Origin: Taiwanofungus camphoratus
Lineage: Eukaryota; Basidiomycota; Agaricomycetes; Polyporales; Taiwanofungaceae
Length of the DNA stretch: 64,000 nucleotides
Reading direction: 5' to 3'
Assembly (NCBI GenBank): GCA_003999685.1
Contig: CP021231.1
Location: 806,001-870,000, forward strand
Shown: positions 12,345 through 17,560 of the stretch, one piece after another
Layout: each line of letters starts with the position of its first letter
Position numbering within the stretch: position 1 is the first letter of the stretch
Notes under the pieces: model-generated
Database searches by the model: none
What the model was told of the DNA's origin: nothing
What the model saw: the letters and a program-made list of their open reading frames with translations, nothing else
Position numbers and translations under genes: made by a program

Positions 12345-15300
12345 ATGTCGCACACCGCTTCGAAGACTGACTTCACGCGCACTAAGAGTAGGCGTAAATG
12401 TATTTATTCTTGTCTTGATATCAGCTGACTCGTGTGCTGTGTTTTATCAGAATTCGTACACTCCAACCCTATCCCATTGGGTATGTCTTGATCCCATTGA
12501 ATCGCGACCATAAGCGAGTGAAATTTACAATAGCACTTTCATAGATATAGACTCTGATCCAGACTTCAATCCTGGGCCCTATGTATATGAACCTCCTAAA
12601 AGGGGCAGGAAAGCCGGGGGGAAATCAGCATCGGCCGGCTCAAGAGGGAAGAAGAGGAGAATAGACACACTTGACGATATTGAAGAATGGAAAGGACCAC
12701 GGAAATGTGCGTGTAACTCGTTTAAGGATGCCTTTACCGTTCCTGACTTGCCTTATGACATAGCAGGCACCAAACCACGAAAGGTGTCCGACTCTCAAAA
12801 CACGCTAAAGGAATACTTTCGTATGCTTCCAACATCTGACGAGGAATTGAAAGAATCTTATTCTGAATCCTTTGTAGATGACCTAGGCCTACAGTCAGCG
12901 TCTGAAGATGAGAATGATGCGGACATAGAGGAAGAAGAACCAGAAGAGGATGACGAAGACGAAAGTGATGAACATCAATCTGAGAAAGATGAACAGCCTA
13001 TTGTGCTCAAAACATTTGCTGTACTCGCAAAACAATCTCGGCCTGGCTCACAAGGAGACACCAAACCCGCCGAGGAGTCCGTAACAGGTAAAGCCATCAA
13101 GACCGTCTTCGTTCCATTATGTCAATATTATCTCACAGAGTCTGAAACCGAGCCTGAGACAGCGCCAGAGGATTCTTCACCCACCGCACTCGCTCACTCC
13201 GGGCTAAAGCGCAAGTCCATTGCGTCAAACCTACCGACGCCGCCCTCTAAAAAAGTCAAACTGGACGACCCAGACGACTCTGTAACAGAACCTGAGACGG
13301 ATCCAGAAGCCCCTCTCGTCACCGCAATTACCAGCGGGACGCGGAGTCCACAGCCTGGGCCTACAACTGCAAGCACTGGGAACTCGGTGTCTCCAACGGG
13401 AGCCACAGCTGAAGAATCTGTTACTGAATCTGAGACAGAACCCGAGTCAGAGACTGAGCCGGATACTGACGCGGAAGAGCTTGCCAGTTCGGTGAGTCTG
13501 GGTTATTTTCACCTCTACATTTCATAACCATATATCGCTACCCTGTACTCACTTGTCCGTAGCGGCTGCAGGCCCGTCCAACTTTCCCACTTAAACCAAA
13601 CCAGCCTCTGCTCGGCCCTCTCGTCCTCGATAAGAAACACAAAGTACCGGCGCGGATCAACACATTCCTGAGAGAGTATCAACGAGATGGGGTACGATTC
13701 TTCTGGGAGAGGTATAAAGAAGGTAGAGGTGGATTGTTGGGTGATGACATGGGATTGGTGAGTGTTTTGTCTCGCGTCTAAGAGCACTGCATGGCTGTTT
13801 GGACCAGATGCGTGTATGTACGCTGATAACTGACTCTCGACTAATCTTAGGGTAAGTCTCCTCTATCTATACTTTCAAATCTATTTTTCCCAACCCCGCT
13901 GCAGGTAAAACGATCCAAGTCATTTCCTTCCTCTCCGCCATGATGCAGAAGCACGGAGATACTCGCGATATCGACCGCAGACGTGGGCATGTCTCCCGCT
14001 TGCAAGACATCAGTAGGGACTGGAAAGAACGCAGGGTCCTCCCGCCTGCAAACCATATGTGGCCCACGTGCTTGATCATTGCACCCAGCAGCGTGGTAGG
14101 AAATTGGGAGCGCGAATTCCAGGTTGTGAGTGTAAGACCCTCTTTTTGGGGGTCAGGTGCTGACATAGGAGACCAGTGGGGATATTTCGAGGTCGGGATG
14201 TATGTCGGTGCACCCTCAGAGCGAGCCAACGTATTGCGTGATTTTAAGCTCGGGAGACTTGACGTAGGTGTGTATTGAACAGCCCTACTTGCTGGTGCTT
14301 TGTACTGTAACCTTTTTCGTACTCATTTGGTCACGAAGTTCTAACATCGTTCGACGTCGCACGCCGAGATATTGAACTCCTTGATGACATGGCATGGTCC
14401 TGTATTATCGTTGACGAGGTCCACAGAGTCAAAAACCCGCGCTCGAAGCTTACCGCTGCCTTCAGCCAATTCGAGTGTGCTGTCCGTTTCGGGCTCACGG
14501 GTACAGGTCTGTAATTCACCCTATCAGCACATAGAGTTGCATGAGTTGACGAGTGTATCTGACCGTTCGCAGCAATTCAGAACTCATACATGGAGTTGTG
14601 GACAATACTGAACTGGACAAACCCCGGTCGCGTTGGCACGAAGGGCCAGTGGGAAGGGTATGTCGTACGGCCGTTGACGGTTGGACAAAGCAAGACGGCG
14701 AAGGACGAGGAGCATATCAAAGCCGCTGTAAGTGGTGTATCATCGTGTTTCCGTGTCGACCATGAACGTCGTTCATACTTGTGGATATAGCTCGTTGCAA
14801 AAATCCTGAAGGAGAAGCTATTGCCAAAATTCTTCCTTAGGAGGTGAGCGATATGCTCGACTGGCTATGTATGGCATAGGTCCTCCTTACACGTAATTTA
14901 GAACGAAGCATATCATTGCGGAGCAGGTAAAGTAACGCTCAATTCAAATCAGTACGAGGAAATTAAGGCATTGGACATTCACTTCATCAGCTTCCAAAGA
15001 AGATCGATGAAGTGGTATTCTGTCCGCTGACCTCCAAACAAATTGAAGTCTACAAACGTATTCTCAACACGGATGCCGTGCAGAACATGATCCGGAAAGA
15101 TGAGCCGTGCGACTGCGGTTCCCGATTAAAGTTAGTATCTTCGTATCAATAACACGTACTCAACATCCGTGTTCTCCGTGCCGCTGGTGCCTCTTTTACG
15201 GTATGGACGAAATAGCTCACATCCATTCACAGGCGCGGAAAGTGTTGTCATCCGTTCGACAAGGGAGACTTATTCAAGTATATGTCGACGTTGATCAAAA

Positions 15301-17560
15301 TATCTAACCACCTTGCTCTGATTTTACCTTGTTGAGTATCTGTTTTGCCTCATCGCATTGTGCCACATTGTTCATCATTCTCATCTCCGTGTCGGACCAA
15401 TCACTACCGGTTAGCGCCAACGGACACTCCAGAACAGGTATCGTTTCTTGTGTTGCCGTTTGAAACGAGCTTGTTTGCCTGACCATGCTTCCATGTGGGC
15501 CCGTTTTTCAATTACTTCCTTAGACAGCACGTAATAGAGAATTATCACGGGCGGCATTTCCTGATGAGGCAATACCCAAGTACGGCCCCGCGATGCTCGT
15601 TCCGCGATTTTGTGGGAAATGGATGGTCAGCGACACCATTGACGACTTGATGTCGTGACGCATGTGTGCTCATGACAAGCCGTAGGTTCTCGGAACACTG
15701 TTGAGGGAGTGGAGGAAAGATCCGTCCAACAAGGTTTTGATATTTACGAAATCCGTCAAATTGCTAGAAATGCTTGAGTTTCACCTCAGGTCACAAAGTA
15801 CGTTTTTCGCTATATCATGAGCTTAGACCTGACTAGATACGAGAATTCTGTCAAACCAGACCTGGGGTTTGTCAAGCTGGATGGATCAACAAAGCAATCT
15901 GATCGTGTGTTCTGACTCAGTGGTCCGACCTCTCTTGTATTGATTTATTTCGTAGGCATGCCGTTGATTGACAAGTTTCACGAAGATCCGGATATCTTCG
16001 TCTTCTTGATCTCTACGCTGGCTGGTGGAACAGGACTAAATCTCACCGGAGCCAACAAAGTTGTCATCTTCGGTGAGTGGGTTCAACCTTTGTCGTTGCA
16101 TAACTGAGATCTTATCTGATGCCTTTGAGACCCCAACTGGAGTGAGTCTTCCTGGTATCAAATCATAAGCAATACTAACATGTTGGATGGACACTTGTAG
16201 ATCCAGCACATGATCTACAGGCCATGGATCGTGCATATCGGTTTGGTCAATTACGAGACGTTTCCGTGTACAGATTGCTGGGTGCCGGGTCTATCGAGGA
16301 ACTTGTCTACGCTCGTCAAGTTTACAAGCAACAACAAATGCTAGTGGGGTATAATGCGAGCTTTCAGACAAGGTATCATTATGAGTGTGCCTACTGTTCG
16401 ATTATTCTGTTTAAACTATACTTTCCTCTCTCTTTTAGGTACTTTGAAGGAGTGCAAGGTGAAAAAGGCAAGCAAGGGGAGTTATTTGGTATCAAGAACA
16501 TATTCAAGTTGCACGAAGACACTCTTGCTACAAAGATGGCTGTAAGTTCATAACGTGGTGAATTCATGTTCAGTACATAATCTCGGTTAAACAGATTGAA
16601 CGGGCGGTCCTCACTGATCTCGATTGGGCACTGGCGCATGTGGATGCTAAGGCAAAGAGAGCTAGTTCTGGTGCTCCCCCTCCCGAAGTCATAGAAGCCA
16701 AAATCAACAAAGATGTTGTAAGTCCGGAGTACAGAGTCGTCAGTCTTATCTCTAAACGCAGTATGCGAATAGGGCGATCTTCGCGGACTGGAAGCTTTAT
16801 TATTTGACGATAGTGAGGATCATGTGTCGAATCGTACGGGTTTTTGGTTTTCTAATTCATCTTACGTTTATGAAGACGTTCCCAAGATCGACAGCAAGGC
16901 TAATGACCTTCGGAAAACGCTCCAGAAAACTCTAAACGACATCGGTGTCAATTATACACACCGCAATGAGTTTCTCATTGCAGAAAGCACTATAGAAGGT
17001 CGTCGTGTTCAGACCATGTTAGAGGTAAGTCATGTTAGCAAACTGCCCTTGGTTATAGTATCGACCTTTATCAGGAAAAGAAGAAGGTAGTCAGGAGAAC
17101 CAGGAAAGCTAAAGCACAAGGGATGGATCCTTCTCAGATAAAGACAGCATCACCAGAACCAGAATGGCCGCCCAAGCGAAGACATCATAAGGCGCCGCCA
17201 AGTCCCATGGCTAGGTGGGTTGTCTTCGCCAAAAGGAAGTCCCGTTCCTCATGAATAAATTATAGGCTCTCCGCTCGCCGAGAAGCCTTAATTGAACTGG
17301 GCTTAATACAACATCCAGACCATGCAGCAGTGTTCGCCCAGGAATTGTGAGTGATTGTGATCTTATAGATAGTCGGAACGGGTGTGTGATTAATTTTTGC
17401 AGTCAGAGAAAATCACCAGCGGAACAGAATGAGATTTTGGTCAAGCTGGATGATCATGAGAAAAGAAAGAAGTTGAAGAAACCTGCGTAAGTTTGATGAT
17501 TGTGCAATGAGAATTTCTCTCGCTAGCGATGGTACTAGGCGCGGCATCGATCTATACTAA
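12345..17560 (+). CDS. SNF2-family DNA translocase, ERCC6L2/Rad26-like
   Basis: A multi-exon gene. The N-terminus ([10 protein letters not shown]) splices to FVHSNPIPL and [11 protein letters not shown], then to a long acidic, Ser/Glu-rich linker with several SETEPE-type repeats (13,130-13,490). The SNF2 core follows: [26 protein letters not shown] (Walker A), [23 protein letters not shown] (Walker B), FGLTGTAIQNS, then the second lobe with [16 protein letters not shown] and [10 protein letters not shown]. After the core comes [16 protein letters not shown], typical of ERCC6L2 proteins, and a C-terminal basic segment ending at TAA 17,558-17,560. Family members act in DNA-break repair and transcription-linked repair in the nucleus; that role is inferred. 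The Walker A glycine codon seems to be built across a 1-nt exon at 13,851. The exon chain across 15,300-15,720 is the least certain part. Confidence 0.85.
13758..13904 (+). other. Double intron flanking a 1-nt exon in the Walker A motif
   Basis: After GGATTG at 13,752-13,757 comes an intron starting GTGAGT at 13,758 and ending CTAATCTTAG at 13,850. A single G at 13,851 is followed at once by GTAAGT, opening a second intron that ends CTGCAG at 13,904. The next exon begins GTAAAACGATCC. Only retention of the lone G restores G-L-G-K-T-I-Q: TTG, G plus GT, AAA, ACG. A single intron across the whole stretch breaks the frame. This can equally be described as stepwise (twin-intron-like) splicing, because both routes give the same mRNA. 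Confidence 0.7.

Follow-up and report, generated by a model that had tools for sequence, protein, structure and literature searches.

Can a single nucleotide act as an exon in its own right at the catalytic motif of an ATPase? The question is posed by a 64,000-nt stretch of Taiwanofungus camphoratus DNA (contig CP021231.1 of assembly GCA_003999685.1, forward-strand positions 806,001 to 870,000; here called the window, whose first letter is position 1), in which a lone G stands between two candidate introns in motif I, the Walker A motif, of a Snf2-type gene. We conclude, at a probability of roughly 90%, that this G is a genuine one-nucleotide exon and that the two ordinary introns beside it lie one base apart. 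This is by far the best reading, because the gene is otherwise intact and a single enumerated parse accounts for the motif. The features concerned are collected in Table 1.

Table 1. Window coordinates of the modelled translocase gene, of the predicted one-nucleotide exon with its neighbours, and of a second small predicted exon.
Feature	Positions	Strand	Basis
Snf2-family (plausibly ERCC6L2-like) translocase gene; 27 exons and 26 introns encoding 1161 aa, with a single terminal stop	12345..17490	+	hand model
Exon ending ..GAT GAC ATG GGA TTG (DDMGL)	13563..13757	+	hand gene model
Intron 1 (first of the two), 93 nt, phase 0, GTGAGT..CTTAG	13758..13850	+	splice-matrix scores
Predicted one-nucleotide exon (G), which opens the Gly codon in GKT	13851..13851	+	sole enumerated parse
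Intron 2 (second of the two), 53 nt, phase 1, GTAAGT..GCAG	13852..13904	+	splice-matrix scores
Exon beginning GT AAA ACG ATC CAA (..GKTIQ)	13905..14125	+	hand gene model
Predicted 12-nt exon ACCCCAACTGGA completing FDPNWNPAHDLQ, second helicase lobe	16130..16141	+	introns 16073-16129 and 16142-16200 on either side

The modelled protein carries both domains by which a Snf2 translocase is recognized, an SNF2-related domain (Pfam SNF2-rel_dom, PF00176; 200.6 bits, 3.8e-59) and a helicase C-terminal domain (Helicase_C, PF00271; 86.4 bits, 1.9e-24), and as modelled the gene clearly belongs to the Snf2 family. The sequence-only reading had called it an ERCC6L2-like translocase. The family stands, with ERCC6/CSB (named ERCC-6) as the nearest solved relative, while membership of the ERCC6L2 subfamily is plausible: none of the 60 solved relatives listed of 86 is named ERCC6L2, and the assignment rests on general sequence features, since the VIGSSK domain, taken as the ERCC6L2 mark, scores 15.2 bits (E 0.023) at the C-terminus, below the Pfam cut-off of 21. 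A search for orthologues gave nothing among viral contigs and one Streptomyces locus at 37% identity among genome contigs, with no fungal relative found. The model also contains a second small exon, predicted at 12 nt, to which solved ERCC6 aligns as YDPDWNPSTDTQA; skipping it would keep the frame and remove four residues.

Between positions 13691 and 13960, every one- and two-intron combination was enumerated that joins GT or GC donors to AG acceptors with introns no shorter than 30 nt. Exactly one of these parses, in which 13758-13850 and 13852-13904 are removed and the G between them is kept, gives a protein with a conserved motif I. On re-reading the sequence, the lengths and positions given earlier for both introns and for the G proved exact. 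Placement of the G in the Gly codon of GKT agrees with this sole parse, and the earlier statement that one-intron solutions fail was borne out as well, none of the enumerated single-intron GT/GC-AG combinations restoring the motif I frame. Position 13851 is immediately flanked by the AG and the GT of two complete introns, the configuration that defines a single-nucleotide exon, and AG-x-GT with x = G occurs once in the interval (AG at 13849). The preceding exon closes at 13757 with ..GGATTG and the exon from 13905 opens with GTAAAACGATCC, so the spliced junction reads GGATTG-G-GTAAAACG with the lone G and GGATTG-GTAAAACG without it. From these letters we infer that cells splice the transcript as parsed.

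Splice signals were scored with a matrix built from 42 other, hand-chosen introns (24 of the same gene, leaving out the tested pair, and 18 that lie at or next to motif I in paralogues). Of 12 GTs scanned, the donors of the two introns rank highest, with scores of 9.79 and 10.76 that lie at the 90th and 98th percentile of the 42. The acceptor at 13850 is the best of seven AGs (6.08; 57th percentile of the 42 introns) and the acceptor at 13904 the second of the seven (3.65; 21st percentile, that is, below average). Intron 1 contains a branch-like CTGAC site 17 nt before its end; less favourably, no branch-like YTNAY site was present in the last 60 nt of intron 2, as in one other of the gene's 26 introns. 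Repeats inside 13700-13960 were short and trivial. An introner or duplicated intron was considered and rejected, a 180-nt stretch matching nothing but itself in its own genome.

At the protein level, inclusion of the G provides the first base of GGT, the Gly codon that completes GLGKT of Walker A. In five chains shown of solved ERCC6 the alignment is gapless through this stretch, with MGLGKTIQ in three and MGLGRTIQ in two. With both introns removed and the G skipped, the frame shifts and a stop follows at codon 401 of the model. Retention of intron 2 gives a protein that reads DDMGLGKSPLSI.. and then stops, later than with the G skipped, and retention of intron 1 gives a stop after seven further residues. 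The SNF2 domain scores 75.0 bits on a 138-aa piece that includes the G; the score falls to 25.1 bits on the 76 aa that precede the stop when the G is skipped, and to 30.9 bits on the 94 aa that precede it when intron 2 is retained. The sequence-only reading had proposed that mis-splicing or retention could make the site a regulatory point, a proposal that found no support: truncation is predicted on retention of 23 of the gene's 26 introns, both introns of the pair among them, and the site is thus not marked as a switch.

The alternative that survives best as an account of the present sequence is an assembly or base-calling error, in which one G was lost from the GG run at 13904-13905 and the true gene has just one intron, about 147 nt long, with GGTAAAACG after it. 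Indels in long-read assemblies commonly take the form of homopolymer length errors, and the acceptor GCAG is indeed followed by G. We nevertheless consider such an error very unlikely. Intron lengths speak against it: 93 and 53 nt both fall inside the 49-102 nt range of the 42 other introns, and their 147-nt total exceeds every one of them. An error would further require that a strong AG-G-GT arose in mid-interval by chance. When the interval was shuffled with its dinucleotides preserved, a usable AG-G-GT, with each score exceeding the 10% quantile and no fewer than 48 nt to either side, arose in 17 of 5000 shuffles and an equally strong one in 0 of 5000. On the other side, AG-G-GT with acceptable scores is not rare as such: 14 such sites lie in the window, counting both strands, and 20 in the fetched loci (195,942 strand-bases). 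Finally, the other exons of the 27-exon model are all in frame, and no further frame correction is needed anywhere in it.

A broken allele, that is, a pseudogene whose frame is truly shifted in motif I, is more improbable still, given an open frame over 1161 codons with every other exon in frame and conserved Snf2 domains. The last alternative, a stwintron, had been put forward in the sequence-only reading as an equivalent route. Stwintrons are described as introns in which an internal intron interrupts the donor, branch or acceptor signal of another, so that the external intron works only once the internal one is out (PMC5639578); the splicing would proceed in two obligate, ordered steps. The likeness lies in two adjacent U2 introns that have to be removed consecutively (PMC5639578, PMC12403724), and the difference in that a signal is interrupted there, as described in PMC5639578, where here both introns keep unbroken signals and are separated by one exonic base. 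In the types described, the split falls either in the donor, after its first or second nucleotide, or in the acceptor, between the final two (PMC5639578), whereas here TTAG is followed by G-GTAAGT and not by TAAGT. Comparison of the donors and acceptors with the definition found both introns complete and no internal intron interrupting a signal of an external one, and the enumeration yields no other boundaries; as no donor or acceptor signal is split, the stwintron reading fails, and we regard its chance as negligible.

For the genuine one-nucleotide exon, the route would be ordinary in kind: two complete U2-type introns, one nucleotide apart and within one codon of a functional Snf2/ERCC6L2-like gene, would be spliced out in succession by intron definition, perhaps with either one going first, and the lone G would be joined to form GGT, the invariant glycine of Walker A GLGKT. 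Because a single base leaves no room for its two splice sites to be occupied simultaneously, splicing is presumably sequential. Removal of intron 2 first leaves TTAG/GGTAAAACG, and removal of intron 1 first leaves TTGG/GTAAGT. Since each first-splice junction leaves the signals of the other intron intact, either intron could go first. The context TGG/GTAAGT is used by one of the paralogues (L027) in the same Gly codon.

Exons of one nucleotide have been described before, and the Snf2 case adds to a known kind. Nuclear examples are described in three gene families, APC11, VPS55 and CYP621A (PMC4674806, PMC8831610, PMC12940212). The one-base exon of Arabidopsis APC11 is reported, from constructs, to be constitutive and functional (PMC4674806), and one-base exons of APC11 and VPS55 are reported across plants (PMC8831610). 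As described, these plant exons resemble the present one in being needed for the frame (PMC4674806, PMC8831610); Arabidopsis APC11 differs in being a plant gene with a 422-nt intronic stretch and A as the lone base, and in being experimentally proven (PMC4674806). The Fusarium CYP621A exon, described by its authors as the first single-nucleotide exon in a fungal gene, is reported in 20 orthologues with an AGGGT core and with supporting reads (PMC12940212). By that description it shares with the window gene a single G between AG and GT (AGGGT) that is needed for the glycine codon of a conserved motif, and two short introns in a compact arrangement (139 nt in F. graminearum, 147 nt here). CYP621A, however, is described as a P450 in which the lone base is central in the Gly codon, with 20 orthologues and transcript reads (PMC12940212), whereas the present gene encodes a Snf2 ATPase, has the G as first base of the Gly codon and is known in one genome, from sequence alone. 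P450 genes of Phanerochaete chrysosporium are similar in their many micro-exons within a compact, intron-rich fungal genome (PMC1184071), several of them in a conserved motif according to PMC12940212; they differ in that the shortest exon given is 6 bp and in belonging to the P450 family, not Snf2 (PMC1184071). Mitochondrial one-base exons have been reported in placozoan cox1 (PMC5436844) and in Ophiostoma (PMC12308204).

Among the titles and abstract openings listed for one-nucleotide exons, no basidiomycete, Snf2 or ATP-binding P-loop case was found. A search combining Walker A, SNF2, intron position and fungi found no publication, and among the matches listed for microexons and SNF2 no title concerned Snf2 intron positions. 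Parallel intron gain as such is a known topic, publications on it and on proto-splice sites being on record. Gene finders are described as tending to miss one-base exons (PMC8831610, PMC12940212); the annotated products of this gene, and those of Snf2 paralogues like L017 (see below), may therefore be wrong at the catalytic motif.

The position of the exon raises the further question of how often motif I is interrupted in this genome. A search of the 33.2-Mb, 15-contig genome gave 22 other Snf2-type loci, a list that may be incomplete because only the best candidates were scored. One of them, L022, judged by eye to be XPB-like, was left out, and 21 were kept (L007, L008, L010-L021 and L023-L029). 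Motif I was defined as the eight codons DExGxGKT, with positions read by eye, and a script located the introns at or next to it in 15 loci (18 introns) and additionally in L008, L013, L014 and L023. The states of motifs II and III were judged by eye from three-frame translations in 13 loci, and L018 and L021 were omitted from those counts. Motif I is interrupted in 18 of the 21 paralogues (partly by eye) and uninterrupted in L007, L011 and L018; with the window gene the count is 19 of 22, falling into 13 hand-assigned arrangements. Motif II is interrupted in 4 of 19 paralogues (4 of 20 with the window gene) and motif III in 7 of 19 (8 of 20), both partly by eye, and at the window gene's intron density an interruption would be expected in 16% of such motifs. 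Fisher tests on these hand counts gave p 2.9e-5 for motif I vs II and p 3.2e-3 for motif I vs III with the window gene included, and p 7.9e-5 and p 2.7e-3, respectively, with it excluded. From the hand counts, the tests and the 16% expectation, motif III is judged to be enriched in interruptions as well, and motif I most strongly.

Two of the paralogues (L012 and L016) carry an intron exactly at the intron 1 position (Leu^Gly, phase 0), and none of the 21 has one at the intron 2 position. In L015 a predicted 11-nt exon, GATGAAATGGG, lies in motif I (1440-1565, 0-based; C2 near 571500). In L017 three introns in or beside motif I leave a predicted 5-nt exon (TGATG) and a predicted 3-nt exon (AAA), giving GGILADEMGMGKT (1566-1752, 0-based; C1 near 3581600); this is the single solution enumerated, with three introns of 40-200 nt each, and by eye a two-intron reading with one residue fewer is also possible. 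These arrangements, counted in one genome and partly by eye, suggest that the Snf2 motif I codons may be a hot spot of repeated, independent intron gain that has left exons of 1, 3, 5 and 11 nt wherever two or three introns came to lie in or next to one motif, with the one-base exon as the limit case and not a one-off accident, a proposal to which we give even odds. The mechanism is ordinary and the exon size rare, and the main interest of the locus lies in its being the extreme of this apparent Snf2 motif I intron hot spot. With introns and tiny exons clustered in one motif across a gene family, the place of intron gain becomes a directly testable question.

As to the origin of the pair, intron 1 is most likely the older, given that its Leu^Gly phase-0 position is also used by L012 and L016, and intron 2 would have been gained later, a single base further downstream, introns often falling within this motif in the present genome. 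A different origin, compatible with the same present-day exon and weighed separately from the alternatives above, is base loss followed by rescue: the gene had one long intron, an exonic base was lost, and a cryptic AG-G-GT exon was then adopted. The AG-G-GT core is the same as in CYP621A, for which the authors of PMC12940212 propose this route, and G, as they describe it, fits both splice consensus sequences. For this route the ancestral intron must have measured about 147 nt, which lies beyond the range of the 42 introns, whereas no unusual length is needed if an intron of 53 nt was gained beside one of 93 nt, and we consider base loss and rescue unlikely, if worth keeping in view. The fit of G to both consensus sequences leads to the idea that G is favoured as a lone base, which a second fungal AG-G-GT case would support.

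Other P-loop families were compared by their profile matches. Among DEAD-helicase matches (36 of 72 candidates scored), 22 of 36 start at profile position 14 or earlier and reach at least position 49, and among ABC matches (19 of 92 candidates scored), 7 of 19 start at profile positions 13-25. That the hot spot is particular to Snf2 rather than a general P-loop effect is only a hint, because the place of motif I in both profiles is assumed and the matches are uncurated.

Two side observations concern the genome as a whole. Class I hydrophobins gave five matches; class II hydrophobins, Fungi_U3 and Fungi_SRP gave no match in this genome, nor did they in the control genomes. The hydrophobin pattern fits a fungus of the mushroom type. 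Six DEAD-type helicase matches (C2:3108891, C3:2105946, C4:2081046, C10:1613400, C11:1211114 and C5:1697832) score 79.7-83.7 bits and share a profile range of 28-166; an open frame of 554 aa is present in four, and the six perhaps represent a recently multiplied helicase gene family.
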